From the IMG/VR virus record IMGVR_UViG_3300003324_000282, positions 1-55,920 of that record: a stretch of DNA of 55,920 nucleotides; one strand, given 5' to 3'. The translations under genes were made by a program, and so were the position numbers. This document shows positions 5,487 to 55,415 of the stretch, piece after piece. The DNA comes from a virus. The notes beneath the pieces were generated by a model. It did no database searches. It was not told where the DNA came from and saw nothing but the letters and a program-made list of their open reading frames with translations. Within the stretch, counting starts at the first letter, position 1. Every line of letters begins with the position of its first letter.

Positions 5487-6253
5487 GTGTTCGTACCCTG
5501 TACCAACAAGGATTTTCTGCTGCTAATCCAAGTTTTGCCAGTATCTTGATGTATGAAAAAACGCATGTGTTTGATCAGTCACGTCCCTTGATTATTGGTC
5601 TTCACGGTCATGGCGGTAATGCTTTGCAATTTATGCCTGGTGGGACAATCCCTAATTTTCCAGCTGCTTTAGTTGAAGCTGGATATATTTTTCTGTCGAT
5701 TGACACAGGACCAACCAGTTGGGCAACAGATGCTGCGATGAATGTTATCACTGATGCTGCTAACTGGGCTGCTAGTAAAGTAAAAACTGGAAAACTTGGT
5801 CTTATGGGATATTCCATGAATGGTGCAGGAGCACTTAACTGGCTTAAACGAAATCCAACCAAGGTTGCATGTGCATGGCTTTGGAATCCACTTCTTGACT
5901 TGGACTGGGCACATTCTACCGCAGGATATACACCTCCTGAAGGTGGAACCGTAGCTAACGTCTCTGGTTGGACAACAGAATTAGATGCTGCTTATGGTGG
6001 AAACTTTGCTGTAAATGCTGTAGGACATAAGATAATGAGTGATTTGAGCTCGTATCGTTTAGGTATTCCAATTAAGGTTTCCGCAGCATCGGATGATGCA
6101 ACGATCCCGATCAGTCATGCTCGATATTTTGTTGCTCAGGTTAATGATCCACTAGTTACTCAACGACTACCTGAACCGATAGGCGGTCACGTTCTAGGTA
6201 CAAGAGGTGTTCCTACGCAAGAAGTAGTTGACTTCTTCAAAGCATATCTGTAA
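5483..6253 (+). CDS. Alpha/beta-hydrolase esterase, probably tail-associated
   Basis: This 256-residue enzyme shows an alpha/beta-hydrolase core. HGHGG at 41-45 is the oxyanion loop, GYSMNG places the nucleophile Ser111, SDDATIP places an Asp near 205 and GGHVLG places His236. It resembles acetyl-esterase or depolymerase-like hydrolases. It overlaps the fibre gene by four bases, so it most likely removes acyl groups from a surface polymer during adsorption. A LysB-like role in a mycolic-acid-bearing host is possible, but LysB proteins normally sit beside the lysin. No signal peptide is seen. Confidence 0.75.
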   Translation: MSVRTLYQQGFSAANPSFASILMYEKTHVFDQSRPLIIGLHGHGGNALQFMPGGTIPNFPAALVEAGYIFLSIDTGPTSWATDAAMNVITDAANWAASKVKTGKLGLMGYSMNGAGALNWLKRNPTKVACAWLWNPLLDLDWAHSTAGYTPPEGGTVANVSGWTTELDAAYGGNFAVNAVGHKIMSDLSSYRLGIPIKVSAASDDATIPISHARYFVAQVNDPLVTQRLPEPIGGHVLGTRGVPTQEVVDFFKAYL

Positions 6254-6263
6254 GGAGGTGAAC

Positions 6264-6665
6264 ATGTCCGACCTTCAACATTTTGGAATTAAAGGTATGC
6301 ATTGGGGTGTTCGCCGCCAACGTGCAGCCGATGGAAAAGTTAGGGGTCCTTCTAAATCTACACGAGAAGGTGTCTCTTCCGATGCAGCAAGAGCTCATGA
6401 AGCTAGAGCAAAAGTAAAATCTCATGGATTAGATTCTTTGTCTAATCAAGATCTTCAACATTTAGTTAGTCGTATGAATCTCGAACAACAATATTCTAGA
6501 TTAACTAGTGATAAAACAAATGTTGCTAAAGTAAAGAAGGGCCGTAACGCTATTAAAGAAGTTATTGGCGTTGCCATTATGGCCAAGCAGGTTCATGAGA
6601 TTGTCAACAGTCCTATGGTTAAGGACATTAAAGTTGCCGTGGGTAAAACTAAAAAGGGCGGATAA
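6264..6665 (+). CDS. Small head-module protein with HFGIKGMHWGVR motif
   Basis: This 133-residue basic protein begins with LQHFGIKGMHWGVRRQ, the motif HxGxxGMxWG seen in many phage head-region proteins. A charged, disordered region follows (about 20-60), then helices rich in K, V and A, and a KTKKGG tail. It starts at ATG 6264 behind AAGGAGGTGAAC. Its neighbours are the esterase and the 2H phosphoesterase, then the large terminase. The motif is shared with the genes at 8913 and 9286, and in altered form with the polymerase-like protein at 52725. Its role is unknown; an internal virion protein is a reasonable guess. Confidence 0.75.
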   Translation: MSDLQHFGIKGMHWGVRRQRAADGKVRGPSKSTREGVSSDAARAHEARAKVKSHGLDSLSNQDLQHLVSRMNLEQQYSRLTSDKTNVAKVKKGRNAIKEVIGVAIMAKQVHEIVNSPMVKDIKVAVGKTKKGG

Positions 6666-6679
6666 ATCGAGGAGGTGAC

Positions 6680-7170: not shown

Positions 7171-8916
7171 ATGGCGCTGTCAAACAGAGCTACTCCGTAT
7201 TATTACGGTCAGTTCCGTGATGCGGTTATTCGTGGAGAGATTCCAGTAAATCGTGAAGTCTCTATGGAGATGAACCGTATTGATGCGCTCATTGCCAATC
7301 CAAACATCTATTACGATGATATGGCTGTAGAAGGATTTATTCTTTATTGTGAGAATGAGCTTACTCTTACTGATGGTTCAGATCTTCATTTACTTCCTAG
7401 TTTTAAAGTATGGGCTGAACAGATCTTTTGTTGGTATTATTTCGTAACTCGAAGTGTATATGAACCATCAAAAGACAATCATGGTGGACGTTATGTAACG
7501 AAGACAATTAAGATGCGTTTAACAACCAAGCAATACCTTATTGTGGCTCGAGGTGCTGCTAAGTCAATGTATGCTGAATGCATTCAGTCGTATTTCTTGA
7601 ATGTAGATACAGCAACAACACATCAGATTACAACCGCGCCTACCATGAAACAAGCCGAAGAAGTAATGCAGCCATTTCGAACTGCTATTACCAGAGCTCG
7701 TGGCCCGTTGTTCAAGTTCCTTACTGAAGGATCGATGCAAAACACTACTGGATCTAAAGCCAATAGAGTTAAACTTGCATCGACAAAGAAAGGTATTGAA
7801 AACTTTCTTACTGGTTCTTTGCTTGAGATTCGCCCAATGACAGTGAATAAACTTCAGGGTCTTCGTCCAAAGGTTTCTACTATTGACGAATGGTTGTCTG
7901 GCGACATTAGAGAAGATGTTGTTGGTGCAATTGAGCAGGGTGCATCTAAACTTGACGACTATTTGATTGTTGCTATCAGCTCAGAAGGTACTGTTCGAAA
8001 TGGTTCTGGCGATACCATCAAAATGGAACTAGCTGACATTCTTAAAGGTGAGTATGTAGCACCACACATTTCTATCTGGCATTACAAATTAGATGAGCTG
8101 GAAGAAGTCGGCGATCCGGCAATGTGGCCAAAGGCTAATCCGAATCTTGGCGCCACTGTTACGTATGAAACGTATCATCTGGACGTGGAACGGGCGGAAA
8201 AAGCCCCCGCTTCGCGGAATGACATTCTTGCCAAACGATTCGGAATTCCGATGGAAGGTTATACTTACTTCTTTACTTATGAAGAAACTCTTACTCATCG
8301 TCGGCAAGATCCTCGAGGAATGCCTTGTTCACTTGGCGCTGACCTTTCCCAAGGTGACGACTTCTGCGCTTTTACTTTCTTGTTTCCATTGCGTAATGAG
8401 AGATTTGCAATCAAAACTAGAAGTTACATTACTTCTTTGACTTTGATGAAACTTCCTGGTGCTATGCGTCAGAAGTATGACGAGTTTATCAAAGAAGGTA
8501 GTCTTCATGTTTTGGACGGAACTGTTCTTGATATGATGGAGGTGTATGACGATCTCGATGCATTCATCATTGCAGAAGAATACGATGTTCGAACACTTGG
8601 GTATGACCCATACAACGCCAAAGAGTTTGTTACTCGATGGGAAGCAGAGAATGGTCCTTTTGGCATCGAGAAAGTCATTCAGGGTGCTAAGACCGAAACG
8701 GTCCCGCTTGGTGAGCTGAAGAATTTAAGTGAGGAAAGACTTCTCCTTTTTGATCAGGAGCTCATGTCGTTTGCTATGGGTAACGCCATTACTATTGAGG
8801 ACACCAACGGTAACAGAAAACTTCTTAAGAGACGACAAGAAGAGAAGATCGACAACGTTGCTGCCTTGATGGATGCATACGTTGCCTACAAAGCAAACAA
8901 GGAGGCATTTGAATGA
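7171..8916 (+). CDS. terL: Terminase large subunit
   Basis: This 581-residue packaging motor has an N-terminal ATPase with a Walker A-like loop VARGAAKS (126-132). Walker B and the catalytic Glu lie at VSTIDEWLSG (Asp239, Glu240). The C-terminal RNase H-fold nuclease starts at GADLSQGDDF (around residue 390), with further acidic residues downstream (LGYDPYNAK near 490). It drives DNA into the prohead through the portal and cuts it. The length is normal for the Terminase_1 family. It starts at ATG 7171 behind AAAGGAGG and overlaps the next gene by four bases. Confidence 0.93.
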   Translation: MALSNRATPYYYGQFRDAVIRGEIPVNREVSMEMNRIDALIANPNIYYDDMAVEGFILYCENELTLTDGSDLHLLPSFKVWAEQIFCWYYFVTRSVYEPSKDNHGGRYVTKTIKMRLTTKQYLIVARGAAKSMYAECIQSYFLNVDTATTHQITTAPTMKQAEEVMQPFRTAITRARGPLFKFLTEGSMQNTTGSKANRVKLASTKKGIENFLTGSLLEIRPMTVNKLQGLRPKVSTIDEWLSGDIREDVVGAIEQGASKLDDYLIVAISSEGTVRNGSGDTIKMELADILKGEYVAPHISIWHYKLDELEEVGDPAMWPKANPNLGATVTYETYHLDVERAEKAPASRNDILAKRFGIPMEGYTYFFTYEETLTHRRQDPRGMPCSLGADLSQGDDFCAFTFLFPLRNERFAIKTRSYITSLTLMKLPGAMRQKYDEFIKEGSLHVLDGTVLDMMEVYDDLDAFIIAEEYDVRTLGYDPYNAKEFVTRWEAENGPFGIEKVIQGAKTETVPLGELKNLSEERLLLFDQELMSFAMGNAITIEDTNGNRKLLKRRQEEKIDNVAALMDAYVAYKANKEAFE

Positions 8917-9275
8917 TTGATGAAAAGCCTTCTTTTGAGCATCATGGTGTTAAAGGTATGCATTGGGGTGTTCGAACTCGTACTCAGTCTTCATATGGTG
9001 AAGCTAAAGCCAGAGAAAAGGAACGTGTAGCATCACTTAAACCTAGTCGTGTAATTTCAAGAAAGATTTCTGAAGTTACCGGCGATCCACGGTCAGCTGT
9101 TACTTTTGCTTCTGTTGCTGCTGTAGGAGTTGCATTTACTCAATCACCTCAAGCTAAAGCAGCAATGAAAATTTCTATGTCGAATGTTGGTAAAGCTGCT
9201 GGCAATAGAAACGTACAGCGAATTACGTTCAAAGCATTGAAGGGCGCTGGTAAACTTTACATGAAGACTAGGTGA
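8913..9275 (+). CDS. Small head-module protein with HHGVKGMHWGVR motif
   Basis: This 120-residue protein has FEHHGVKGMHWGVRTRT at residues 8-24. A basic region and a moderately hydrophobic stretch (about 60-80, TFASVAAVGVAF) follow, then a basic tail. It overlaps the large terminase stop (ATGA) and is followed by a second protein of the same type. It is one of three HxGxxGMxWG proteins around the terminase and portal. Function unknown. Confidence 0.75.
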   Translation: MIDEKPSFEHHGVKGMHWGVRTRTQSSYGEAKAREKERVASLKPSRVISRKISEVTGDPRSAVTFASVAAVGVAFTQSPQAKAAMKISMSNVGKAAGNRNVQRITFKALKGAGKLYMKTR

Positions 9276-9285
9276 GGAGGTGACA

Positions 9286-9690
9286 ATGTTATATGAAGAG
9301 AAACCAACTTTAAACAATGCTATGATTCACTACGGTGTTCTCGGCATGAAGTGGGGTGTAACTCGTCAACAAGCTAGAGGTGGCGATATTCGTGCAGCAC
9401 GAGCAAGACTTGTTTTAGAAAGACAAAAAGTAAAACAAGCTAAACGAAAAGTAAGTGAAGCTAGTACTGCTAAAGATAAAGCTGCTGCAGCTCAGAAACA
9501 TGTTGATTTAAAAATGGGTTTATTAAACAATTCGGACAGAGTTATTGCTTCACGTCTGACTACTGGGGAGAAAGTAGCAACTGCACTTTTGTTTAGTCCT
9601 GTCGGTGCCGCCGCACTGATCGGTACTACATCTGCTACATCTCGACGAATTGAATATAAACAAGACAAAGGCAAGTATACTAAGACGTAG
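9286..9690 (+). CDS. Small head-module protein with HYGVLGMKWGV motif
   Basis: This 134-residue protein carries IHYGVLGMKWGVTRQQ at about residues 15-30, then a strongly basic predicted coiled coil (RARLVLERQKVKQAKRK), a hydrophobic patch (VATALLFSPVGAAALIG) and a basic tail. ATG 9286 is preferred over GTG 9280 because the GTG lies inside the GAGGAGG ribosome site. It directly precedes the portal gene. It may be an internal or connector-associated virion protein, but nothing in the sequence proves it. Confidence 0.75.
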   Translation: MLYEEKPTLNNAMIHYGVLGMKWGVTRQQARGGDIRAARARLVLERQKVKQAKRKVSEASTAKDKAAAAQKHVDLKMGLLNNSDRVIASRLTTGEKVATALLFSPVGAAALIGTTSATSRRIEYKQDKGKYTKT

Positions 9691-9720: not shown

Positions 9721-10989
9721 GTGTCAACAATCGGGTCTAGATTGAAGCACGCTTGGAACGCTTTTACCAATCAAGAGAGTTCACTTCAGTCATATGGCGA
9801 TGCGGTTTCATATGGTCGTCCGGACAGAACTCGACTTAGGATTCCAAATGAACGTTCTATCATCTCCTCTATTTATACGCGTCTTAGTATTGACGTTGCT
9901 GGTGTCGATATTCGTCATGTGCGCGTCGATGATAGCGGTCGGTTTAGTGGTGACATTGATAGTGGACTTAATAATTGTCTTACTGTTGAGGCTAATTTGG
10001 ATCAAGCGGCTCGAGCTTTTAGACAAGATCTTGCGCTAACGTTATTTGATAATGGTGCCGCGGCTATTGTACCGGTCGATACATCGTTAAATCCGCTTGT
10101 GACTGGTGGATACGATATTTTGAGTCTTCGTGTTGGTGAAATTATTCAATATATGCCTCGACATGTAAAATTGAATGTTTACAATGAAGCCATTGGTCGA
10201 CGTGAGCAAATTGTGCTTGAGAAAAAGTTTGTCGCGATTGTTGAGAATCCGCTATATTCTGTAATGAATGAACCGAACTCAACTCTTCAGCGCCTTATTC
10301 GAAAGCTAAATCTTCTAGACACGATTGATGATCAGTCTGGTTCTGGAAAACTCGATCTCATTATTCAGCTTCCATATGTAATCAAATCTGAATCAAGACG
10401 ACAGCAAGCCGAACAACGTCGTCAGGATATTGAGTTCCAGTTGTCTGGAAGTAAGTACGGCGTTGCTTATACAGATGGTACAGAAAAGATCACCCAGCTT
10501 AATCGACCTGTTGAAAATAATCTATTAAAACAGGTAGAGTATCTGGTCGAGATGTTGTATGGTCAACTTGGCCTTACGCCAGAAATTATGAACGGCACGG
10601 CCGACGAGAAGGCCATGCTGAACTACAACAGTCGTACGATCGAACCAATTCTAGATGCCATTGTTGAAGCAATGCGCCGTACATTTCTTACAAAGACTGC
10701 TCGTTCACAAGGTCAGACTATTGCATATTTCCGCAATGCATTTAAGCTTATTCCACTTAGTGAGATCGCTGAGATTGCTGATGTCTTTGCTCGGAATGAA
10801 ATCGCTACTTCCAACGAAATCAGACAAATTCTTGGATGGAAGCCTCATGATGACCCAAAGGCAGATCAACTTCGGAATAGCAATATGCCACAACCAGGGG
10901 ATAGTCCTCCGACAGATCCATTGGCAAAATTGAAAGAAATTAATAATTTAAAGCGAAGTATTCCGTCCCCGTCGGGGTCGGTTGAATAA
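9721..10989 (+). CDS. Portal protein
   Basis: This 422-residue protein has the portal layout: an IPNERSIISSIYTRLSIDVA block, a beta-rich wing (10.0-10.3 kb), then the stem and clip with QLGLTPEIMNGTADEKAMLNY and a C-terminal domain with IREILGW-like NEIRQILGWKPHDDP. Twelve copies would form the ring through which DNA passes. It starts at GTG 9721 after GAGGAGGTGACAT. Upstream lie the terminase and downstream the protease/capsid fusion, the usual order. The C-terminus is disordered and Pro-rich. Confidence 0.88.
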   Translation: MSTIGSRLKHAWNAFTNQESSLQSYGDAVSYGRPDRTRLRIPNERSIISSIYTRLSIDVAGVDIRHVRVDDSGRFSGDIDSGLNNCLTVEANLDQAARAFRQDLALTLFDNGAAAIVPVDTSLNPLVTGGYDILSLRVGEIIQYMPRHVKLNVYNEAIGRREQIVLEKKFVAIVENPLYSVMNEPNSTLQRLIRKLNLLDTIDDQSGSGKLDLIIQLPYVIKSESRRQQAEQRRQDIEFQLSGSKYGVAYTDGTEKITQLNRPVENNLLKQVEYLVEMLYGQLGLTPEIMNGTADEKAMLNYNSRTIEPILDAIVEAMRRTFLTKTARSQGQTIAYFRNAFKLIPLSEIAEIADVFARNEIATSNEIRQILGWKPHDDPKADQLRNSNMPQPGDSPPTDPLAKLKEINNLKRSIPSPSGSVE

Positions 10990-11014
10990 AACAGATACGG
11001 AAGGAGACAGTCCA

Positions 11015-13075
11015 GTGGAACCGGATTTCAGCGGTTACGCAACTAAGGCTGGTCTCAAGTGCTCCGACGGCCGGACAATTATGCCTGAGGCATTCAAAGA
11101 GATGGACGGAAAAACCGTTCCGCTCGTCTGGCAACACGGGCACAAGGACCCTTCAAATGTTCTTGGCCATGCCGTTCTCGAAGCTCGTAGTGATGGTGTT
11201 TATGCTCACGCGTTCTTCAATGATACTGAGCCGGCAAAACAGGCTAAGGCGCTTGTTGAGCACAAGGACATTACGTCTTTGTCTATTTATGCTAACAGTC
11301 TTGTTGAAAAGGGCAAAAAGGTATTTCACGGTGTTATTCGTGAGCTTAGTTTGGTTCTTTCCGGTGCCAATCCTGGTGCAGTGATTGACAATATTCGTAT
11401 TGCTCACAGCGATGACCCAGATGACATCGAGACGTTGGATGATGAAGCGATCATTTATACTGGTCTCGATCTCGTGCATTCTGATGAGGGTGCTGAAGCT
11501 GAGAAGAATGCTGATGGCGGGAAGAATGAAGAGAACGCTGAAGGCGGGAACAATGAAGAGAACGCTGAAGGCGGGAAGAATGAAGAGAACGCTGAAGGTG
11601 AAGAAAACGAAGATAATGCTGACAATGAAGAAGTTCAGCATGCTGCAACTAATGACAAAACCGTTCAGGATGTCTTTGATTCCTTTACAGCAGAGCAAAA
11701 GAAAGTTGTTCATTACCTGATCGGAGCCGCTCTCGAAGAAGCTGGCTCCACTGCAGAGCACTCCGACATGGAAGGACAGGAAAACATGGGAACGCGCAAC
11801 GTTTTCGAGCGAGATGGGAATGGCGGCGGTAGCACCGAGACGCATGAGCTGTCGCACGATGCCATCGCAGGGATTGTGGCAGACGCAAAGCGTCGCGGAT
11901 CTCTGAAAGCAGCTGTTGAAGACTATGCAATTCAGCACGGTATCGAGAACATTGACGTTCTTTTCCCGGATGCCAAGAACCTTGATGACGTTCCTGAGTG
12001 GGAGAAGCGTCGTACTGAGTGGGTTGCTGGTGTTTTGAACACTACTCGGCACACCCCATTCTCTCGGATTAGGACTCGTTCTGCTGATCTTACTCACGAA
12101 GAGGCTCGTGCCAAAGGTTACATCAAGGGTAATCTTAAGAAGGAAGAATTCTTCGGTGTTACAAAGCGTACTACCACTCCGACTACGATCTACAAGAAGC
12201 AGCAGCTTGATCGCGATGACATGCTCGACATTACAGACTTTGATGTCGTTGTCTGGCTCAAGGGTGAAATGCGTCTTATGCTCGAAGAGGAAATTGCTCG
12301 GGCTATTCTGATTGGTGACGGTCGAGACGTTGCTCACGAAGACAAGATCAAGGATCCGATGGGTGCTGCTGAAGGTGCTGGTATTCGTTCAATTCTGTAC
12401 GACCACGAGCTTTATGTGACGCATGTGAATGTTGGGCTGCCGGCTACCAATGCAGATTACAACGATGTCGTGGAAGCTGTCATGCGCGCACGTCGTTTCT
12501 ACAAGGGTACTGGTATGCCGAACTTCTACACGACAACTCAGACTTCGGTCGAGATGTTGCTGTCGAAGGACCAGTTTGGACGTCGTCGTTGGAACAGTAA
12601 GGAAGAGTTGGCTAACGCGCTGGGTGTTGGTCAGGTTATCGACGTTGAGGTCATGGACCAAGAGCCGGATCTGCTTGGCATCATTGTCAACCTTGCAGAC
12701 TACTCGGTTGGTACTGACCGTGGTGGCGACATCACCATGTTCGATGACTTTGATATCGACTACAACCAGTACAAGTACTTGATCGAGACTCGTCTGTCTG
12801 GTGCTCTTACCAAGATCAAATCTGCTATGGTTGTTCACCGTCAGGCTGTTGGTGACGTTCAGGTTACGCCGACTGCTCCGGACTTTGACGGCACGACAAT
12901 CACTATTCCGACGGATGCCAATGTCGACTACTTCGCTGATGGCTCACCGGTTGCTGACGCAGCCACGGTTCCGGTTCCGGCTGGAACCACAGTGGAGATC
13001 ACGGCTACTCCGACAGCTGGACACTTCTTCGCTACTAACGAAGAGGACCAGTGGAGCTTCACTAACAACGCCTGA
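11015..13075 (+). CDS. Fused prohead protease - acidic linker - HK97 major capsid protein
   Basis: One 686-residue chain holds two head functions. Residues 1-130 resemble an S78-type prohead protease (WQHGHKDPSNVLGHA with the His, and ELSLVLSG with the Ser). Residues 165-200 are an acidic 9-residue repeat (GGKNEENAE type) probably acting as a scaffold. Residues from about 265 onward are an HK97-fold capsid protein (TPFSRIRT, FDVVVWLKGEMRLMLEEEIARAILIGDG, TTQTSVEMLLS, IETRLSGALTKIKS). The last 70 residues form an Ig-like add-on (ITIPTDANVDYFADG, then WSFTNNA) also present on the tail-tube protein at 13724. GTG 11015 was chosen for the AAGGAG eight bases upstream. Confidence 0.88.
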   Translation: MEPDFSGYATKAGLKCSDGRTIMPEAFKEMDGKTVPLVWQHGHKDPSNVLGHAVLEARSDGVYAHAFFNDTEPAKQAKALVEHKDITSLSIYANSLVEKGKKVFHGVIRELSLVLSGANPGAVIDNIRIAHSDDPDDIETLDDEAIIYTGLDLVHSDEGAEAEKNADGGKNEENAEGGNNEENAEGGKNEENAEGEENEDNADNEEVQHAATNDKTVQDVFDSFTAEQKKVVHYLIGAALEEAGSTAEHSDMEGQENMGTRNVFERDGNGGGSTETHELSHDAIAGIVADAKRRGSLKAAVEDYAIQHGIENIDVLFPDAKNLDDVPEWEKRRTEWVAGVLNTTRHTPFSRIRTRSADLTHEEARAKGYIKGNLKKEEFFGVTKRTTTPTTIYKKQQLDRDDMLDITDFDVVVWLKGEMRLMLEEEIARAILIGDGRDVAHEDKIKDPMGAAEGAGIRSILYDHELYVTHVNVGLPATNADYNDVVEAVMRARRFYKGTGMPNFYTTTQTSVEMLLSKDQFGRRRWNSKEELANALGVGQVIDVEVMDQEPDLLGIIVNLADYSVGTDRGGDITMFDDFDIDYNQYKYLIETRLSGALTKIKSAMVVHRQAVGDVQVTPTAPDFDGTTITIPTDANVDYFADGSPVADAATVPVPAGTTVEITATPTAGHFFATNEEDQWSFTNNA
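11516..11596 (+). repeat. Three 27-bp repeats in the acidic capsid linker
   Basis: Units at about 11516, 11543 and 11570 each encode GG-(K/N)-NEENAE, and diverged partial copies flank them. The repeat lies between the protease and capsid domains of the fused gene, so changes in copy number would alter linker length only. Confidence 0.85.
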
Positions 13076-15151: not shown

Positions 15152-15164
15152 GAGGAGGAATCAT

Positions 15165-28915: not shown

Positions 28916-28950
28916 TCGCAGGTAATACATCTCATATAATGAGACCCTAA
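28916..28950 (+). promoter_or_regulatory. Array promoter copy 1 (TCGCA-14-TATAAT-GAGACCC)
   Basis: TCGCA at 28916-28920, a 14-base spacer containing AATACAT, TATAAT at 28935-28940 and GAGACCC immediately after. It lies 24 bases before ATG 28964. This exact spacing recurs in all copies. Confidence 0.8.
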
Positions 28951-29522: not shown

Positions 29523-29562
29523 TCGCAAAATTTACGTGGCTTATAACGAGACCCCTACTATC
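29523..29562 (+). promoter_or_regulatory. Array promoter copy 3
   Basis: TCGCA at 29523-29527, 14 bases containing TTTACGTGG, TATAAC at 29542-29547, then GAGACCCCTACTAT. It ends just before the ribosome site of the gene at 29576. Confidence 0.8.
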
Positions 29563-29772: not shown

Positions 29773-29801
29773 CTCAGAGTCCCACACGGACTTTGAGTTT
29801 T
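29773..29801 (+). terminator. Terminator, 10-bp stem with one G-U pair
   Basis: CTCAGAGTCC at 29773-29782 pairs with GGACTTTGAG at 29788-29797 across CACAC, followed by TTTT. It abuts promoter copy 4 directly. Confidence 0.8.
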
Positions 29802-29835
29802 CGCAGATTTTACATCTCTTATAATGAGACCCCCT
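29801..29835 (+). promoter_or_regulatory. Array promoter copy 4
   Basis: TCGCA at 29801-29805, 14 bases with TTTTACATC, TATAAT at 29820-29825, then GAGACCCC. The terminator of the previous gene touches it, leaving no spare sequence between transcription units. Confidence 0.8.
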
Positions 29836-30115: not shown

Positions 30116-30155
30116 TCGCATTTTTTACACTCATTATAACGAGACCCCTACTATA
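30116..30155 (+). promoter_or_regulatory. Array promoter copy 5
   Basis: TCGCA at 30116-30120, 14 bases with TTTTTTACAC, TATAAC at 30135-30140, then GAGACCCCTACTAT. It lies 26 bases before ATG 30166. Confidence 0.8.
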
Positions 30156-30560: not shown

Positions 30561-30633
30561 GCCCTACTAGCCCAATGGCAGAGGCAGAAGACTTAAAATC
30601 TTCCAAGTGTGGGTTCGAGTCCCACGTAGGGCA
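30561..30633 (+). tRNA. tRNA with UAA anticodon (decodes UUA Leu), short variable arm
   Basis: The acceptor arms GCCCTAC and GTAGGGC pair over seven bases. The D-stem is GCC/GGC. GAAGA/TCTTC frames the loop CTTAAAA with anticodon TAA, and the T-arm is GTGGG-TTCGAGT-CCCAC. The discriminator is A and CCA is not encoded. A bacterial tRNA-Leu normally has a long class II variable arm, but here it is only about five bases (CAAGT). The genome uses TTA codons freely, which would be slow in a GC-rich host. Aminoacylation by LeuRS therefore needs checking. Confidence 0.9.
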
Positions 30634-30636
30634 CAA

Positions 30637-30675
30637 TCGCAAAAATTGCACGGCTTATAATGAGACCCCTACTAT
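30637..30675 (+). promoter_or_regulatory. Array promoter copy 6
   Basis: TCGCA at 30637-30641, 14 bases with AATTGCACGG, TATAAT at 30656-30661, then GAGACCCCTACTAT. It starts three bases after the tRNA. Confidence 0.8.
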
Positions 30676-32498: not shown

Positions 32499-32534
32499 TC
32501 GCATAAAATACATGGGTCATAATGAGACCCCCAT
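32499..32534 (+). promoter_or_regulatory. Array promoter copy 8
   Basis: TCGCA at 32499-32503, 14 bases with AAAATACATGGG, CATAAT at 32518-32523, then GAGACCCCC. It lies 18 bases before ATG 32552. Confidence 0.8.
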
Positions 32535-36904: not shown

Positions 36905-39900
36905 GTGGACTTTTATCAGATCGGCACTAAAGAAACCAAGGGCGGAGTCATTGAGATATTCCCAGACTTCACTGTTGGCCGATCTAAAGACCTCATGGTG
37001 CGTGGACGTTCTTTCTATGCAATCTGGGATGAAGAAAAAGGTCTATGGTCTACGGACGAATACGATGTACAACGTTTAGTGGACAAAGAGCTTTCTGAGT
37101 TTGCAGACAAGCTGAAGAAAGACGGACATATTTGCACTGTAAAATACCTTCGTTCGTTCAGTAGTAACACTTGGAGTCAGTTTCAGAATTTTTTGAGCAA
37201 AGTTGGAGATAATGCTCATACGCTCGACCAGAATCTGACTTTCAGTAATACCGAAGTTTCGAAGTCTGATTATATAAGTAAACGTCTACCATACCCTCTC
37301 GCCCCAGGTTCTACTCCTGCTTGGGACGAGCTGATAGGTACATTATACTCTGTTGAGGAAAGAGCAAAAATTGAATGGGCAATTGGATCAGTCGTTTCAG
37401 GAGATTCTAAGAAAATCCAAAAGTTTCTCGTCTTATACGGACCTGCTGGAACAGGCAAGTCAACAGTTCTCAATATTGTCCAAAAACTGTTCGAAGGCTA
37501 CACAACTACTTTTGAAGCTAAGGCCCTTGCTTCCTCAAATGGAACCTTCTCGACAGAAGCATTCAAAAACAATCCACTAGTTGCAATTCAACATGATGGT
37601 GATTTGTCAAAGATCGAGGATAACACAAAACTGAACTCGATTGTTTCTCATGAAGAGATGACAATGAATGAGAAGTATAAACCGAGTTATACTGCTCGCG
37701 TTAACTCCTTCTTGTTCATGGGAACGAATCAACCAGTAAAGATATCTGATGCCAAGTCGGGTATCATTCGTCGTTTAATTGATGTTCATCCTACTGGCAT
37801 CAAGATTCCGATCAATCACTATCATACGTTAATGAGCAAGATTGACTTTGAGTTAGGTGCTATTGCGCATCGTTGTCTTGAAGTCTATCAACAAATGGGA
37901 AAGAACTATTACAACGGATATCGTCCACTCGAGATGATGTTACAAACAGATGTATTCTTTAACTTCATCGAGGCTAACTACGATATTTTCAAATCACAAA
38001 ATGGTACTTCCTTGAAGCAGGCATACGCGCTATACAAAGATTTCTGTAATGATACGGGAATTGAACGACAACTTCCACAATACAAGGTACGAGAAGAACT
38101 TCGTAACTACTTTGAAGACTTCAAAGACCGAGCTGTAGTTGATGGTGAGACAATTCGAAGTTATTACTATGGTTTCACCGCACATCCATTTAAAACGCCT
38201 TCTAAGGATGCTAACACGTTCTCGTTGGTTATTGATGAAACTACATCTATATTTGAGAAGTTATATGAAGATTGTGCAGCGCAGTATGCCAAAGAAGATG
38301 GAACTCCTCAAAAGAGGTGGATTACAGTAAAGACCAAGCTTAGTGATATTGATACCAGTCAACTTCACTACGTAAAGGTTCCTGATGATCATATTGTGAT
38401 TGACTTCGATCTTAAGGACGAGAATGGTAACAAAAGCTTGGAACGAAATTTGGAAGCAGCCAGCAGCTGGCCCGCTACCTACGCCGAAATCAGCAAATCT
38501 GGATCCGGCGTGCATCTACATTACCGTTATGACGGAGACGTTAACACCCTCTCTAGAAGCTTTGCTGATGGAGTTGAAGTTAAAGTCTTCAATGGTGATA
38601 GTTCTTTGCGCCGTCGATTCACAAAATGCAACAGTGTATCGATTAGCACAATAAGTAGTGGGCTCCCTACGAAGGAGAAGAAGGTGCTTCAATCCCAAAC
38701 TATCAAGAGCGAGAAAGGTCTTCGGGAACTTATCGCTCGAAATCTACGCAAGGAGATTCATCCAGGAACGAAGCCCTCTGTCGACTTCATCAAACATATT
38801 CTGGATCAAGCATATACAGATGGTTTGACCTATGATGTCTCAGACCTTCGACCAAAGCTAATTACATTCGCAAACAACAGTACCAATAGGCCATTAGAAT
38901 GTCTTAAGATCGTACAGAGCATGAAGTTCAAATCTGAGAAAGAAACAGAATCTGTTGACACTAGAAGTAATACTACATCAACAGCGGCTATGGATACATA
39001 TTCTGCTCCAGAAGATGATGTGATTGCTCCGTTCGATACTGAAGTATTTCCAAACCTATTTATTGTGTGCTGGAAGTATCGAGGGTCTGACCAAGTAGTA
39101 AAGATGATTAACCCATCACCTACAGAAATTGAAAAACTTGTCGAGCTCAAGTTAATTGGGTATAACAATCGACGGTTTGATAATCATATTCTGTATGCAC
39201 GAATTATGGGTTATAACAATCAGCAATTGTTCGAACTCTCACAAAAATTAATCAATGGTAACACCAGTGCATATTTTGGCGAAGCATATAATCTTTCTTA
39301 TGCAGATGCCTATGATTTTATCACAGACAAAAAGAGTTTGAAGAAGTTTCAAATTGAACTAGGTTTACCTCATGTTGAACTGGATTTGCCATGGGATCAG
39401 CCAGTTCCTGATGAACTAATTGACAAAGTTGTTGAATATTGTGTCAACGATGTGCTCAGTCTTGAATCGGTAATTGAAGAGCGAGAAGCAGATTTAGTTG
39501 CTCGACAAATTCTAGCTGAGTTATCTGGTCTGTCTATCAACGACACCACACAACGACACACAGCAGCAATTATATTTGGTAAGGATAACAAAAAACCACA
39601 GAAAGATTTCGTTTATACCCATTTAAGCAAGGAGTTTCCAGGATATGAGTATGATCGTGGCGTTAGTACGTATCGTGACGAAGTTGTCGGTGAAGGCGGC
39701 TATGTTTATGCTGAGCCTGGTATGTACAACGACGTTGCTCTCCTGGATGTGGCGTCTATGCACCCGACGTCGATCGAAGAGCTAAATCTGTTCGGACCAT
39801 ATACTCCGAATTTTACCGCTCTTAAGAACGCTCGTTTGGCTATCAAATATGGTGACTATTCATCAGCTCGAGAAATGATGGATGGTAAGCTTGCGCCATA

Positions 39901-40675
39901 TTTGAAGAATGAGAAAAACTCAGCGGCATTGGCCTATGCTTTGAAGATTGCAATCAACACAGTGTACGGTCTTACCGCGGCCAAGTTTGACAACCCGTTC
40001 AGAGACAATCGCAACATTGATAATATTGTAGCAAAGCGTGGTGCTCTGTTCATGATCGATTTAAAACATGCAGTACAGGAACAAGGTTATACTGTCGCTC
40101 ATATCAAAACGGACTCTATCAAGATTCCGGAAGCTACACAAGAGATCATCGATTTCGTTGTCAATTTTGGTACTAAATATGGCTATGAGTTCGAACACGA
40201 GGCTACGTATGACAAATTTTGTCTCGTGAACGATGCAGTTTATATTGCACACAAGCCCGAGAGTAACATTTGGGTTGCAGTAGGAGCTCAGTTCCAGCAT
40301 CCGTATGTGTACAAAACATTGTTCAGTGGCGAAGAAATTGAATTTGACGACTTGTGTGAGACAAAACAAGTTATGCAGGGCGTTATGTATCTAGAATATC
40401 CGGACAATGTTCGAGAGCATGTCGGTAGGATTGGAAGATTTGTTCCAGTGCTTGAAGGTGGTGGCACGTTGTTGCGGGTTAAGGATGACAAAGCCTACGC
40501 AGTTACAGGCACCAAGAACTACGAGTGGGTTGAAGCCGAGATGGCTCGAAATAACCAAGATACAATCAAGATTAACATGTCATATTTCGAGAAGCTAGCT
40601 AATGATGCTCGAGATGCTATCGATTATTATGGATCATTCCATGATTTTGTGCTACTAGATGGGGTCAATAGATAA
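36905..40675 (+). CDS. SF3 helicase - AEP primase - family B DNA polymerase fusion
   Basis: This 1,256-residue protein joins three replication activities. An SF3 helicase occupies about 120-330, with Walker A GPAGTGKST at 179-187, then IQHDGDL and FMGTNQP. An archaeo-eukaryotic primase-like domain lies around 460-590: IDFDL (Asp500, Asp502), SGSGVHLHY (His537) and VEVKVF. A family B polymerase fills 700-1256: Exo I FDTE (Asp711, Glu713), Exo II YNNRRFDNH, Exo III YCVNDV, motif A LLDVASMHPTS (Asp948), motif B KIAINTVYG (Lys1014) and motif C IKTDSI (Asp1070). The first Asp of the usual DTD is Lys in motif C. GTG 36905 follows AAAGGAGGG. Confidence 0.88.
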   Translation: MDFYQIGTKETKGGVIEIFPDFTVGRSKDLMVRGRSFYAIWDEEKGLWSTDEYDVQRLVDKELSEFADKLKKDGHICTVKYLRSFSSNTWSQFQNFLSKVGDNAHTLDQNLTFSNTEVSKSDYISKRLPYPLAPGSTPAWDELIGTLYSVEERAKIEWAIGSVVSGDSKKIQKFLVLYGPAGTGKSTVLNIVQKLFEGYTTTFEAKALASSNGTFSTEAFKNNPLVAIQHDGDLSKIEDNTKLNSIVSHEEMTMNEKYKPSYTARVNSFLFMGTNQPVKISDAKSGIIRRLIDVHPTGIKIPINHYHTLMSKIDFELGAIAHRCLEVYQQMGKNYYNGYRPLEMMLQTDVFFNFIEANYDIFKSQNGTSLKQAYALYKDFCNDTGIERQLPQYKVREELRNYFEDFKDRAVVDGETIRSYYYGFTAHPFKTPSKDANTFSLVIDETTSIFEKLYEDCAAQYAKEDGTPQKRWITVKTKLSDIDTSQLHYVKVPDDHIVIDFDLKDENGNKSLERNLEAASSWPATYAEISKSGSGVHLHYRYDGDVNTLSRSFADGVEVKVFNGDSSLRRRFTKCNSVSISTISSGLPTKEKKVLQSQTIKSEKGLRELIARNLRKEIHPGTKPSVDFIKHILDQAYTDGLTYDVSDLRPKLITFANNSTNRPLECLKIVQSMKFKSEKETESVDTRSNTTSTAAMDTYSAPEDDVIAPFDTEVFPNLFIVCWKYRGSDQVVKMINPSPTEIEKLVELKLIGYNNRRFDNHILYARIMGYNNQQLFELSQKLINGNTSAYFGEAYNLSYADAYDFITDKKSLKKFQIELGLPHVELDLPWDQPVPDELIDKVVEYCVNDVLSLESVIEEREADLVARQILAELSGLSINDTTQRHTAAIIFGKDNKKPQKDFVYTHLSKEFPGYEYDRGVSTYRDEVVGEGGYVYAEPGMYNDVALLDVASMHPTSIEELNLFGPYTPNFTALKNARLAIKYGDYSSAREMMDGKLAPYLKNEKNSAALAYALKIAINTVYGLTAAKFDNPFRDNRNIDNIVAKRGALFMIDLKHAVQEQGYTVAHIKTDSIKIPEATQEIIDFVVNFGTKYGYEFEHEATYDKFCLVNDAVYIAHKPESNIWVAVGAQFQHPYVYKTLFSGEEIEFDDLCETKQVMQGVMYLEYPDNVREHVGRIGRFVPVLEGGGTLLRVKDDKAYAVTGTKNYEWVEAEMARNNQDTIKINMSYFEKLANDARDAIDYYGSFHDFVLLDGVNR

Positions 40676-41396: not shown

Positions 41397-42191
41397 ATGA
41401 CTGAGCATAGTATTTTAATCCGTAAAATTGATGATGTTCGCAAACCTAGATTAAAAACTGGTGCAATTTTTAAAGAAGATTCTCGAAATCTTGACTTTGT
41501 GCATTCAGATCGAATGGCTGCTCGAGCTCAACCGCCATTACCGATTACTGATGTGAACTGGCCACGACACATCAAAATCATGAATCAAAATGCCTCAGTA
41601 ACAGTTAATGGTCGACGTTATAACGGACTTGGCAGTTGTGTGCCTAACAGTGGTATTACTACTCTTTCTACTGGACCATTCAAGCCACCATATCCACGTC
41701 CTACTGAGCAAAAGACCATTGTTCCACTATATGAGACACTGAGTGCTGAGCTCGGTCCGGAGTATGCTTTTCCTCCGAACGACAAAGGTTGCAGCATCGG
41801 TGACTTTATGTCATTGGCGATAGAACGTGGCTGGATCTCTGAGTACAACTGGGTATATACCTTAGATGACATGCTGCAAGCACTGATGCATGGACCAGTT
41901 CAAGTAGCAATTGCATATCTTCATTCATATGAGCGAGATGCTAGTAGTGCTCGTTTCCCTGTGCATTTGAAGAGTGGTATTATTAGTTTTCATGCTTTGT
42001 GTGCCGATGAAGTTCGACTTAGCAAAAAGCAAGTTTGGTACACAAATAGTTGGGGTCATGTTGGTGCTAGAGATGCAAAAGGTAACTGGACTGGTAAATT
42101 CTATCAGACCTTTACTGATCTGGAACGGTTATTTAAGAGCAACAATATTCAGGTTGCAGTACCAATTCCTTCTCCTACTAGGAGGGTATAA
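41397..42191 (+). CDS. Papain-like cysteine protease (C1 fold), phage copy 2
   Basis: This 264-residue protein has the same fold order as the gene at 529: GLGSCVPNSG (Cys81), GIISFHALCADE (His199) and WYTNSWGHVG (Asn217). It has an insert of about 100 residues between Cys and His and lacks the Pro-rich tail. It lies among replication genes and so is probably made early, unlike copy 1. Host-protein cleavage or processing of a phage replication protein are both possible. No signal sequence is seen. Confidence 0.75.
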   Translation: MTEHSILIRKIDDVRKPRLKTGAIFKEDSRNLDFVHSDRMAARAQPPLPITDVNWPRHIKIMNQNASVTVNGRRYNGLGSCVPNSGITTLSTGPFKPPYPRPTEQKTIVPLYETLSAELGPEYAFPPNDKGCSIGDFMSLAIERGWISEYNWVYTLDDMLQALMHGPVQVAIAYLHSYERDASSARFPVHLKSGIISFHALCADEVRLSKKQVWYTNSWGHVGARDAKGNWTGKFYQTFTDLERLFKSNNIQVAVPIPSPTRRV

Positions 42192-42789: not shown

Positions 42790-43020
42790 TTAACAAGCTT
42801 CCTGGAGAGGGGTCTCTGGGAAAATGGGTGCTATCCGTCCTGTGCTAATTCAATGGGATACGGGCTGTTAAGTACGGGAAGTCAGCCCATCCTTATAAGC
42901 GCCGACGAGCGCCTAGTCGTCCTGTGTCGAGCGCACTTTTACAACGGGCAGGATGGGAGAGTCGCGGGCCTGGCTACAACAGCGACACAATCGTGGCAAC
43001 AAGGCCACTACATGAAAGGA
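42790..43020 (+). ncRNA. Candidate structured RNA, GC-rich gap
   Basis: This gene-free stretch is markedly more GC-rich than its surroundings and full of pairings. GGGCTG 42862-42867 pairs with CAGCCC 42883-42888. CCCATCCT 42886-42893 pairs with AGGATGGG 42950-42957. GCGC pairs with GCGC at 42899-42912. GGCC pairs with GGCC across 42967-43006. The first two helices share three bases, so they exclude each other. An open frame at 42853 lacks a ribosome site. It could be a trans-acting RNA or a regulatory leader for the gene at 43031. Confidence 0.4.
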
Positions 43021-43030
43021 AGTGACAGTT

Positions 43031-43270
43031 ATGCCTCCGGAGAACGAGGGCCAGGAGACACCGGTTGCTCAGTCGCAGACTGCTGAGGAGCCGCGGGGTT
43101 CGAACGAGCCCAACACCACTGAGACGGCTCAGACAGATGTTACAGCACCAGATCGTGCTGAGGAAAAGAAGGTTGACGTTCCTCAGAATGAGACATCTGT
43201 TACGGATGACAGGGCCGCGGAAGCTGGTCCGACCGATGCCGGCACAGTTTCGGGTGACACCACCCCGTAG
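43031..43270 (+). CDS. Disordered acidic protein
   Basis: This 79-residue protein is almost entirely E, D, T, A, P, Q and N (for example VAQSQTAEEPRGSNEPN) and predicted to be disordered. GAAAGGAAGTGACAGTT precedes ATG 43031. Its base composition is GC-rich, like the preceding RNA-like gap and unlike neighbouring genes. That suggests the two arrived together. It may be a DNA mimic or scaffold; no family is recognised. Confidence 0.6.
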   Translation: MPPENEGQETPVAQSQTAEEPRGSNEPNTTETAQTDVTAPDRAEEKKVDVPQNETSVTDDRAAEAGPTDAGTVSGDTTP

Positions 43271-43345: not shown

Positions 43346-43385
43346 TCGCAAGATATACAGGGGTTATTATGAGACCCCTATTGAA
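43346..43385 (+). promoter_or_regulatory. Array promoter copy 9, outlying
   Basis: TCGCA at 43346-43350, 14 bases with GATATACAGGGG, TATTAT at 43365-43370, then GAGACCCCTATT. It lies about 11 kb from the main array but keeps exact spacing and flanks, and again precedes a small single-gene unit with its own terminator. Confidence 0.8.
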
Positions 43386-50489: not shown

Positions 50490-50870
50490 ATGGGAAACCG
50501 CCGAAAGTTAAAATTAGCGTCCTTAAACGGCATGTCGGCACTATCTGGTCCTCAACCGTTGGATCAACCTACCGAGCTTCCCGGACCGGGCGCCATCAAT
50601 GCATACGTATGTAACCGTTGCTACAACCTGACCATTGTTCAGAATGTTGATCGTGGTACAACACCGATGTATATGACTTGTTTGGCTAAGGAAGGCTGTG
50701 AAGGTACGGCCAGGAGCATGAGATACCCTCCAAATCCGCCTCAGAAGGTCATAGACGCAGTAAAATGGGAGTGGTATAGGCCTACCGGCCTGGAATTCGA
50801 AAATCTCTCTCCTGAGATGCGTCAGCGCGTTTTGAATGGTGAGCTGGTGTTGAGAGAGAAATTGAGGTGA
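50490..50870 (+). CDS. Zinc-binding conserved phage protein
   Basis: This 126-residue protein has VCNRCYNLTIV and MTCLAKEGCEG, a four-cysteine set likely to bind zinc. A C-terminal helical part with VKWEWYRPTGLEFENLSPE follows. ATG 50490 follows AAGGAGAATC. It is the first gene downstream of the nested repeats. Function unknown. Confidence 0.7.
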   Translation: MGNRRKLKLASLNGMSALSGPQPLDQPTELPGPGAINAYVCNRCYNLTIVQNVDRGTTPMYMTCLAKEGCEGTARSMRYPPNPPQKVIDAVKWEWYRPTGLEFENLSPEMRQRVLNGELVLREKLR

Positions 50871-52229: not shown

Positions 52230-52728
52230 GTATCACTGGATCAACTATAGTGAGGAAAAATTAGAGCGTGTCTTTGTTGCACATGAAGCTGCTCGTCGAG
52301 GCAGTGATTTACATAATCTTGCACATGAAGCAATTCGACTTGGTGTTAAGCTTGCAGGTAGAAATACACTAGGCTTGTATGTTAATGATGCTATTGGTTA
52401 TCGTATGACCTGTGAACAAGTTTTATATTTTTCACCAAATGCGTTTGGAACCGCGGATACTATTTCTTTCCGTCGTAACAAGCTTAGGATTCATGATTTG
52501 AAAACTGGGGTCTATCCATGTTCTGAACATCAGCTTGAGGTTTATGCTGCTCTGTTCTGTCTTGAATACGGATTCAAACCAGCTAACATTGAGATTGAAC
52601 TTCGTATTTACCAGTCTGACGAAGCTCGTATTTATGAGGCTGACCCAGACATTATTACACACATCATGGATAGAATTATAACGTTTGACAAGAAGATCAA
52701 CGAACTTAGATTGGAGGCGATGTCATGA
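52171..52728 (+). CDS. RecB/Cas4-like PD-(D/E)XK nuclease
   Basis: This 185-residue protein has a GSDLHNLAHEAIRLG helix (His motif). FGTADTISFRRNKLRIHDLKTG gives the central Asp and DxK, and HQLEVYAALFC gives the QxxxY motif of the RecB family. It resembles phage exonucleases that process DNA ends. ATG 52171 with AAAGGAAAG lies inside the previous gene. It overlaps the polymerase-like gene by four bases. Confidence 0.75.
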   Translation: MNFNKHLDLVDQHAFLSPSKYHWINYSEEKLERVFVAHEAARRGSDLHNLAHEAIRLGVKLAGRNTLGLYVNDAIGYRMTCEQVLYFSPNAFGTADTISFRRNKLRIHDLKTGVYPCSEHQLEVYAALFCLEYGFKPANIEIELRIYQSDEARIYEADPDIITHIMDRIITFDKKINELRLEAMS

Positions 52729-55415
52729 TTCTAGAAGGCGAAGACGCACTCCAGCACTATGGTATTCTCCGCAAGTCAGGTAGGTATCCTTGGGGTTCTG
52801 GTGAAGACCCGGTTCAAAGAAGTAACACGTTTTTGGGTATGGTTGCCGACCTACGTGAAAAAGGACTCACCCCAAAAGAGATTGCTGTTGGGTTAGGTTT
52901 AGAGAACACTACCAATCTTCGTAATGTTACAACTATTGCTCGGGCTGAGAAGAAAGCCGCCGATGTCAGTATAGCTATTCGGTTGAAAGAAAAAGGCATG
53001 TCCAATATTGCCATTGGTAAACAAATGGGCGTTGGTGAATCTCAGGTTCGTGCATTGTTGAAAGCACATGAAGACGATAACTTGCATATTCTCAAAGCCA
53101 CTACAGAAGTTATCAAAAAACGTTGTGATGAAGTTAAGTACCTTGACGTTGGTACAGGTCAACAATATCATGTACCTACTGGTGTCAGTGAAAACAAATT
53201 CAAAGCTGCAATTGCTGCGCTTGAAGATCAAGGCTACAAAGTTCATTATCTTAAAGTTCCTCAATTGGGAACCACACATGAAACAACACATAAAGTCCTA
53301 GCACCACCAGGTGTACCATATTCTGAAGTCAGTAAGAATCGTGATAACATTCGTGGTTTTACTGAATGGACCAATGATGGTGGTAGGTCTTGGTTGGGCA
53401 TTGATCCACCAATTTCTATTAGTTCAAAGCGTCTTGGTATTCGATACAAAGAAGAAGGCGGCGCAGAAGCAGATGGTGTCATCTATGTTCGACCCGGTGT
53501 AAGAGACATTTCACTAGGTCGATCCCGTTATGCTCAGGTGCGTATTCAAATTGATGATACGCATTACATCAAGGGCATGGCAATGTACAAGGATGATCTT
53601 CCATCTGGAACCGACCTTCTTTTCAATACGAATAAGTCGAACACTGGAAATAAATTAGATGCTTTGAAGCCACTGAAGAATGATCCTGACAACCCATTTG
53701 GATCTACTGTTCGTCAGCTTAAAGATGAAAATAAAAAAGTATACTCGGCAATGAATATTGTTTATGAAGAAGGTACCTGGGAGCGTTGGTCTAATAAGTT
53801 GTCTTCACAGTTCCTATCCAAGCAAACTCCGGATCTGGTTAAGAAGCGGCTTGACCTAACGTTTGAAAAGAAGAAGTCTGAGCTAGATGAAATCATGAAG
53901 TTGACAAACCCCGCAGTTAGAAAGCATCTTCTATTCAAGTTTGCTGAAGAGGCCGATTCTTCTGCGGTTCATCTCAAGGCGGCTGGGTTCAAACGTTCTG
54001 CTGCACATGTTATCTTACCTATTACTTCTATGAAAGAAACAGAAATCTATGCACCTAACTTCAAGAATGGTGAACGAGTAGTTCTTATTCGTCATCCGCA
54101 TGCAGGTGTATTTGAGATTCCAGAACTAACTGTTAATAACCGTCATCCAGAAGCTAGAAAACTTCTTGGTCCTACCAAGGATCGTCCTGAGCCGGTTCGA
54201 GATGCAGTAGGCATTCATCCCAAGGTTGCACAACATCTTTCTGGTGCAGACTTTGATGGTGATACGGTTCTGGTAATTCCAAACAATGATAGAAGAATTA
54301 AGAACTCTCCACCATTAGCTGGGTTAAAAGACTTTGATCCGCAGATATACAAGATTCCTGATGACAGTCCAATACCCAGAATTAAACCAAAGACAAAGCA
54401 ACTACAAATGGGTGATGTTTCAAATTTGATCACCGATATGACTATCAAAGGAGCACCCCCATCCGAGCTTGCTCGAGCAGTTCGGCATTCTATGGTAGTT
54501 ATCGATGCTGAGAAACATCATCTAAACTATAAGCAATCAGCCATTGATAATGGTATTTCTCAACTTAAGAAGCGGTATCAAACAGATGCTGCTGGTAACC
54601 CTTCTTCTCGAGCTGGTGCTTCAACTTTAATTTCTAGAGCTAAGAGTCGTAAAGAAGTACCAGAGAGAAAACAAGGGTTTAAGATTAATCCTGAAACTGG
54701 TGCCAAAGAGTATCGTTATACTGGTGCAACTAAGATAGATGCAAAAGGTAGGGTTGTCCCTCGTACAACCAGGTCTACTAAGATGGCTGAAACTAATGAT
54801 GCCCGTACTCTGTTGTCTAAGGGTGGTGGTACAAAGGTAGAGCACATCTATGCAGACTATGCTAATAGACTTAAGACTATGGCTAATGATACGAGGAAAG
54901 AGTACATCAATACAAAGCCTACGCCATATGATAGTTCAGCAAGAACTGCCTACTCAAAAGAGGTGGCCTCTCTTAACGCAAAGCTCCACCTGGCTTTAAG
55001 AAACAGCCCCCTTGAAAGACAAGCCCAGGTCCTAGGAAACCGGGTCTATAAACAAAAGCTCAATGACCAACCAGACATGGATGAGTCTGAGAAGAAGAAA
55101 GTAAAAGCTCAGGCTCTAATGGAAGCTAGAACTAGGGTTGGTGCACATAAAGAACAGATCAAGATTGATGAAAATGAGTGGGCTGCTATTCAAGCAGGTG
55201 CTTTCCATAACAACACTCTCACTAAGATTCTAGACAATGCAGATCTTGATACAGTGAGGAAGCTAGCTACACCTAAGGAAACAGTACTAATGACTAACTC
55301 CAAGACAGCTAGAGCACAGTCTATGCTTAAGGGTGGTGCCACACAGGCTGAGGTTGCTGAGGCTCTTGGTGTATCACTTAGTACTCTTAAGCGTAGTCTA
55401 GGTGGTGAAGGGTAA
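52725..55415 (+). CDS. RNA polymerase beta-prime-like protein with HTH segments and head-type N-terminal motif
   Basis: This 896-residue protein carries HLSGADFDGDTVLVIP, whose Asp509, Asp511 and Asp513 match the catalytic DFDGD of multisubunit RNA polymerase. The upstream context (VVLIRHPHAGVFEIP then IHPKVAQHL) parallels the beta-prime NRxPTLHR...LHPLV segment. A possible second barrel is near YIKGMAMYKDDLPSGTDLLF. Helix-turn-helix segments lie at about 40-60, 85-110 and 870-892 (TQAEVAEALGVSLSTLKRS). The N-terminus LQHYGILRKSGRYPWGSG recalls the HxGxxGMxWG motif of head proteins. A single-chain phage RNA polymerase is the best hypothesis. Confidence 0.7.
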   Translation: MILEGEDALQHYGILRKSGRYPWGSGEDPVQRSNTFLGMVADLREKGLTPKEIAVGLGLENTTNLRNVTTIARAEKKAADVSIAIRLKEKGMSNIAIGKQMGVGESQVRALLKAHEDDNLHILKATTEVIKKRCDEVKYLDVGTGQQYHVPTGVSENKFKAAIAALEDQGYKVHYLKVPQLGTTHETTHKVLAPPGVPYSEVSKNRDNIRGFTEWTNDGGRSWLGIDPPISISSKRLGIRYKEEGGAEADGVIYVRPGVRDISLGRSRYAQVRIQIDDTHYIKGMAMYKDDLPSGTDLLFNTNKSNTGNKLDALKPLKNDPDNPFGSTVRQLKDENKKVYSAMNIVYEEGTWERWSNKLSSQFLSKQTPDLVKKRLDLTFEKKKSELDEIMKLTNPAVRKHLLFKFAEEADSSAVHLKAAGFKRSAAHVILPITSMKETEIYAPNFKNGERVVLIRHPHAGVFEIPELTVNNRHPEARKLLGPTKDRPEPVRDAVGIHPKVAQHLSGADFDGDTVLVIPNNDRRIKNSPPLAGLKDFDPQIYKIPDDSPIPRIKPKTKQLQMGDVSNLITDMTIKGAPPSELARAVRHSMVVIDAEKHHLNYKQSAIDNGISQLKKRYQTDAAGNPSSRAGASTLISRAKSRKEVPERKQGFKINPETGAKEYRYTGATKIDAKGRVVPRTTRSTKMAETNDARTLLSKGGGTKVEHIYADYANRLKTMANDTRKEYINTKPTPYDSSARTAYSKEVASLNAKLHLALRNSPLERQAQVLGNRVYKQKLNDQPDMDESEKKKVKAQALMEARTRVGAHKEQIKIDENEWAAIQAGAFHNNTLTKILDNADLDTVRKLATPKETVLMTNSKTARAQSMLKGGATQAEVAEALGVSLSTLKRSLGGEG

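Follow-up and report, generated by a model that had tools for sequence, protein, structure and literature searches.

A predicted single-chain two-barrel RNA polymerase of a phage lineage, possibly carried in the virion, and its candidate promoter

Introduction

The window analyzed here, the whole stretch of 55,920 bases that makes up the virus record, contains a gene whose product was described in an earlier note as a compact phage RNA polymerase, perhaps packaged in the capsid and injected. The locus raises the question of whether this protein is indeed an RNA polymerase, whether it travels in the virion and which DNA it would transcribe. With moderate confidence, we favor the reading that it is a virion-carried single-chain RNA polymerase, loaded by means of a tag, that transcribes early genes from a dedicated promoter. 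The following were obtained by computation in this study: the protein family, the two-barrel match, the invariant residues, the resemblance of the tag and its setting among head genes, and a lineage-wide promoter-like element that co-occurs with the polymerase; the virion association of the homolog from Lactococcus phage 1706 was taken from a database record. The relevant features are listed in Table 1.

Table 1. Coordinates of features in the window
Feature	Position	Strand	Remarks
DUF7211-tagged protein, LQHFGIKGMHWGVRR	6228..6665	+	upstream of terminase; tag 6273-6323
Terminase large subunit	7171..8916	+	context
DUF7211-tagged small protein, FEHHGVKGMHWGVR	8913..9275	+	between terminase and portal; tag 8937-8987
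DUF7211-tagged small protein, IHYGVLGMKWGV	9280..9690	+	between terminase and portal; tag 9313-9372
Portal protein	9721..10989	+	context
Head maturation protease family	10982..13075	+	context; relative annotated as major capsid and protease fusion
Candidate promoter TCGCAGGTAATACATCTCATATAATGAGACCC	28916..28947	+	repeat analysis, mismatch search
Candidate promoter, copy 2	29523..29554	+	repeat analysis, mismatch search
Candidate promoter, copy 3	29801..29832	+	repeat analysis, mismatch search
Candidate promoter, copy 4	30116..30147	+	repeat analysis, mismatch search
Candidate promoter, copy 5	30637..30668	+	repeat analysis, mismatch search
Candidate promoter, copy 6	32499..32530	+	repeat analysis, mismatch search
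Candidate promoter, 1-mismatch copy	43346..43375	+	mismatch search
Predicted single-chain two-barrel RNA polymerase gene	52725..55415	+	896 aa, 99.4 kDa, PHROG_4291
N-terminal tag HYGILRKSGRYPWGSG	52755..52802	+	residues 11-26; probably divergent DUF7211 relative
N-terminal HTH	52974..53072	+	residues 84-116; Pfam HTH_23, E=1.3e-8
Putative DPBB-B (beta-like barrel)	53430..53639	+	approx. residues 236-305; limits inferred
Putative DPBB-A (beta'-like barrel)	54042..54284	+	approx. residues 440-520; limits inferred
GADFDGD, catalytic Mg2+-binding motif	54243..54263	+	residues 507-513; invariant in 72 homologs
C-terminal HTH	55329..55400	+	residues 869-892; HTH_24/Sigma70_r4-like Pfam match

Distribution of the polymerase family

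The deduced protein matched the PHROG_4291 profile over its full length (E=0, residues 4-894 on the 909-position profile). A tblastn search yielded 249 annotated phage records in which 80% or more of the polymerase was covered, each at less than 60% identity, and the hosts of these phages belong mostly to Arthrobacter, Gordonia and Streptomyces, with further representatives in Lactococcus, Faecalibacterium, Microbacterium, Rhodococcus and Curtobacterium. Additionally, the full-length matches include one Bifidobacterium phage, and IMG/VR contains more than 500 relatives. The family thus occurs in hundreds of phages that infect bacteria from soil, dairy and the gut. It was named "RNA-dependent RNA polymerase" by PHROGs, and its members are recorded under this label, as "hypothetical" or, commonly, as "helix-turn-helix protein"; if the present reading is true, the first and last of these annotations would need correction in about 250 phage records. 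In most genomes the gene is located at the genome end or nearby, and circularisation of the genome would bring it next to the lysis and head genes.

The annotated coding sequence of Streptomyces phage HotFries (locus L082, 40565-43234) begins 3' of the tag, so that the recorded protein lacks it, and short open reading frames or fragments in contigs G019 (6418-6666), G046 (50568-50840) and G045 (42926-43156) match internal segments of the polymerase profile.

Fold and catalytic motifs of the polymerase

A PDB sequence-profile search with the family profile returned only HTH-type or chance matches, along with a non-significant match to a phage beta' subunit. Since no significant polymerase match was obtained, the fold was tested by structure models. 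AlphaFold2 modeling with 72 sequences resulted in a pLDDT of 83.9 for the full-length protein; a model of the core comprising residues 226-650 had a pLDDT of 85.8. In the Foldseek comparison with the PDB, the full-length model ranked QDE-1 (E=5e-10), P74-26 gp62, P23-45 gp64 and plant RDR2 at the top, and every one of the 17 chains at E<=0.001 was a two-barrel RNA polymerase. The core model matched 27 PDB chains, among them QDE-1 with E=1e-11 and a TM of up to 0.54, as well as cellular beta'-type large subunits over about 117-155 columns, several of them at 2-6 A. The TM values are moderate, and that of the full-length model to QDE-1 was only about 0.3 with a large rmsd, which may reflect domain movement or an error of the model. 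A search of BFVD identified a protein of P23-45 as well as two entries under the name RNA-dependent RNA polymerase.

The assignment as RNA polymerase in the earlier note was upheld by both models, the top PDB fold matches of which were exclusively two-barrel RNA polymerases. The note had named the absence of a double-psi barrel near residue 510 as an outcome that would refute the assignment, and the fold search provided no such refutation. Judged from these models, the 896-aa protein is very probably an RNA polymerase, although data on its catalytic activity are lacking.

With respect to the motifs, GADFDGD was recovered at exactly the residues given before; its aspartates D509, D511 and D513 form the DxDGD triad and are invariant in the 72 homologs. 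The IHP segment is present at residues 497-499, and two of the proposed HTH segments are genuine Pfam matches, whereas the segment described upstream as R-x-P-x-x-H actually reads R456-x-P458-H459 (RHPH, 456-459). The putative DPBB-B contains HYIKG at residues 280-284 with the invariant K283, which may correspond to the basic residues that two-barrel RNA polymerases direct from the second barrel towards the active site; the limits of both barrels are our reading of the alignment and the secondary structure. As S18-G19-R20-Y21-P22-G24-S25 of the tag, K283 and GADFDGD are all invariant in 72 homologs, these motifs go beyond chance.

The N-terminal tag and DUF7211 proteins of the head region

The earlier note had pointed to an N-terminal motif like that of three head-module proteins, and this resemblance proved to be real and lineage-wide. 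Within the window, only the proteins encoded at 6228-6665, 8913-9275 and 9280-9690 exceeded the curated cut-off of PF23847 (DUF7211), a Pfam family without known function that was found in 13 of 13 records searched. The N-terminus of the polymerase remained below this cut-off in every genome tested, the best value being 14.6 bits, in Gordonia phage Untouchable, compared with a cut-off of 27. When an HMM was built from the head tags only, the polymerase N-terminus ranked first among the untagged open reading frames in 11 of 16 genomes (6089 open reading frames in total), namely the window, HotFries, CHPC971, Untouchable, FP_oengus, Psst1, G003, Scarif, G002, G001 and P092; this count is our reading of the ranked list. 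A common origin of both tags is likely but not proven by such sequence comparisons, because the individual matches have weak E-values (0.08 to 6), the polymerases are mutually related and the head tag aligns with the first half of the polymerase tag only, ending after the HYG half. The polymerase tag has a mean identity of 0.906 within the family, compared with 0.81-0.82 for the barrel regions, and is predicted to be disordered, with pLDDT values below 50 at residues 1-22 and 24-26 of the AlphaFold2 model.

The tag DNA pattern matched in 20 of 20 related genomes, and a reversed control gave zero matches. In annotated relatives the tagged genes are located around the terminase gene and ahead of the portal gene, with one additional tagged gene further upstream in Untouchable (995-1810). 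A scan of 2.9 million viral contigs with a similar pattern revealed at least 80 loci, and in 77 of the 80 listed the tag is accompanied by terminase, portal, capsid or tail genes belonging to the same lineage. Among the matches listed, 170 of 203 tags lie at most 40 aa from the first possible start, and 191 tagged protein bodies fall into 69 unlinked groups, all but four of these bodies (187/191) being net basic. No polymerase-type tag was detected on other proteins in the loci examined, apart from two chance matches, and a literature search for the tag string or DUF7211 retrieved no relevant publication.

That the polymerase tag acts as a cargo signal is inferred, and we lean only slightly towards this function. 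Still more tentative, and in our view just short of an even chance, is the wider proposal that DUF7211 marks capsid cargo in general across a large phage lineage and would load the polymerase and varied, unrelated basic proteins (one with a Barstar domain) for delivery, the delivered polymerase then firing a dedicated early promoter. If true, a Pfam family without known function would gain a role, and the predicted loading tag could be tested at the bench. The T4 capsid-targeting sequence of internal proteins and DarA/DarB of phage P1 represent pathways by which unrelated cargo is loaded into the head; the comparison concerns the mode of action only, as the phage groups differ and DUF7211 has no known function.

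Two tag copies within a single open reading frame occur in orf7 of phage 1706, the 2817 ORF of Arthrobacter phage Mudcat and the 42163 ORF of G003. A tagged 568-aa protein (L281:3017-4720) combines a Barstar (barnase inhibitor) domain with two copies of DUF7211, and it is possible that this protein is a delivered inhibitor.

Virion association

The genome record of Lactococcus phage 1706 (EU081845) contains a homolog of the polymerase, orf75, with 38% identity over 993 columns and the tag DSLQHYGTKRHSGRYPWGSG. The depositors labeled orf75 as "structural protein", a label likewise given to the tagged orf7, which has two tags, lies directly upstream of the terminase gene and shows weak homology to the window protein at 6228..6665; most of the unnamed open reading frames were labeled "unknown". 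In RefSeq, orf75 is named "RNA-dependent RNA polymerase". The label "structural protein" probably denotes experimental detection, which is not certain. Together with the lineage-wide likeness to head-module proteins, it supports the packaging suggested in the earlier note, and we consider it quite probable that the polymerase is associated with the virion, although packaging rests on one database label. An objection to injection is that a 99-kDa enzyme would need to traverse a long tail.

A promoter-like element upstream of small genes

Repeat analysis of the window revealed six copies of TCGCA...ATAAYGAGACCC between 28916 and 32530, directly upstream of small genes, and copies with two mismatches are present at 29352 and 31043. 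The element has the form TCGCA-N4-TTACA-N5-TATAATGAGACCC and precedes small genes past the tail module. When three mismatches were allowed, 12 matches were found in the window versus 3.1 expected, a number reached by none of 100 shuffled sequences. The core pattern TACA-N5-TATARTRRR, searched with one mismatch allowed, occurred nearly always on one strand and, in most of 17 genomes, more often than expected from a Markov model. Of these genomes, which range from Streptomyces to Lactococcus phages, 15 show the element clearly on the coding strand; the two weak genomes are Camille, with one site, and FP_oengus, with one site on the opposite strand. The consensus of 119 sites from 13 genomes is TCGCA-N4-TTACA-nggcc-TATAATGAGA-CC, and 115 of these sites are followed by an RBS-like sequence and a start at a median distance of 31 nt. 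Lactococcus phages retain only the core TTACA-N5-TATARTGA. No relevant publication containing the promoter string was retrieved by a literature search. The gene for tRNA-Leu (taa) at 30561-30634 adjoins candidate promoter copy 5 on its upstream side.

Co-occurrence was determined in 31 contigs of at least 35 kb that were picked by the exact element alone. The polymerase was encoded by 28 of them; a 29th match, in G019, was short and weak and was excluded, and the other contigs without the polymerase, G015 and G039, end before its usual place. Neither these two contigs nor G049 and G047 can serve as polymerase-free counterexamples, being linear pieces from which the polymerase end may have been lost, and G046 has only a short polymerase-like fragment, with no PolB homolog detected in it. 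As no clean polymerase-free relative with the element was found among the polymerase-negative contigs followed, the element cannot be separated from the lineage. The co-occurrence does not prove recognition, since phages with polymerase, tag and element share much else by descent. Recognition of the element by the polymerase is inferred, and we regard it as somewhat favored; if true, the predicted promoter is bench-testable.

Proposed mechanism and alternative explanations

In the proposed mechanism, a single-chain RNA polymerase of the two-double-psi-barrel kind, inferred to be DNA-dependent, would be carried in the virion after its disordered N-terminal tag has recruited it to the assembling head. 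It would enter the host alongside the DNA at infection, both packaging by the tag and injection being inferences, and its own HTH domains would replace a sigma factor. Transcription would start at the element, ahead of the small genes that follow the tail module; promoter use and early timing are likewise inferred. If transcription of the small-gene region is started by the polymerase, and the polymerase gene sits beside late genes at or close to the opposite genome end, virion delivery is the straightforward explanation, but this is a chain of inferences that has its link to data in the 1706 label.

A rather unlikely alternative is a non-virion RNA polymerase that is made during infection and transcribes middle or late genes, the tag being a leftover or having no packaging role and the 1706 virion protein being a contaminant. 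There is precedent in the single-chain two-barrel RNA polymerase YonO of Bacillus phage SPbeta, a demonstrated DNA-dependent enzyme reported to transcribe late genes (PMC5467207), and the gene position near lysis and head genes in circularised genomes would suit such a role. Evidence against this explanation comes from the virion label of orf75, from the tag, which ranks with the best-conserved parts of the protein, and from the candidate promoters, which precede the small genes and are absent, as judged by the core pattern, from the head and tail region of the window up to 27 kb. It is far less probable that the protein is an RNA-dependent RNA polymerase copying phage or host transcripts. Such a function agrees with the PHROGs and RefSeq names, with QDE-1 as the closest fold and with a weak Pfam RdRP (PF05183) match below the gathering cut-off (E=0.011; 18 of 20 family members at E<=1). 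The type of template cannot be read from the fold, since PDB entries of QDE-1 also include DNA templates, and both the DNA-binding-type HTHs and the co-occurrence with a DNA promoter-like element speak against it.

The promoter step alone is affected by a further explanation, compatible with packaging, according to which the host RNA polymerase uses the TATAAT-containing elements as its promoters, perhaps aided by an activator from the phage, and other DNA sites are the target of the packaged protein. We consider this unlikely, if slightly less so than a non-virion polymerase. The element includes a good, host-like -10 hexamer, and regulators other than the phage polymerase are not excluded; however, the six aligned window sites lack a conserved TTGACA-like -35 at the usual spacing, and conservation extends to TCGCA, TTACA and GAGACCC across phage genomes of 43-61% GC, with the core TTACA-N5-TATARTGA being retained at 34% GC.

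Comparison with known systems

The RNA polymerase gp66 of crAss-like phage phi14:2 is packaged in the virion and was not among the fold matches listed. It represents a single-chain two-barrel phage RNA polymerase with a solved structure (cited in PMC10770324). Gp64 of Thermus phage P23-45, a non-virion RNA polymerase, and gp62 of P74-26 resemble the window polymerase as single-chain two-barrel phage enzymes; this likeness is at the fold level, as neither was found by the PDB sequence-profile search. The virion RNA polymerase gp96 of the long-tailed phage P23-45 is fused to the tape measure and transcribes pre-early genes (PMC10770324), whereas the window polymerase is a free protein with N-terminal tag and HTHs. 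YonO likewise consists of one chain, about 840 aa long, and has an IHxP...DxDGD motif, but membership in its family (PHROG_8308) was rejected (hhalign probability 3%, motif-level BLASTP matches only, different PHROG). QDE-1 and the eukaryotic RNAi polymerases (RdRP, PF05183) provide the best fold match, yet identity is only about 12%, and the window protein differs in phage context, HTHs and tag. If the proposed mechanism is true, the virion RNA polymerases would gain a widespread and tractable group, represented in isolates that infect Streptomyces, Arthrobacter, Gordonia and Lactococcus, and work on the origin of cellular RNA polymerases would have one more single-chain relative to draw on.

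Other genes of the window

The window also encodes a 1256-aa DNA polymerase of PHROG_4210 (36905-40675); its positional counterpart in phage 1706, orf55, has been published as the four-in-one replicase GP55 (PMC12205980). Two members of the major tail protein family PHROG_2645 are encoded close to each other at 13724-14593 and 15144-15917, and the 264-aa protein encoded at 41397-42191 resembles, by eye, a papain-type cysteine protease.
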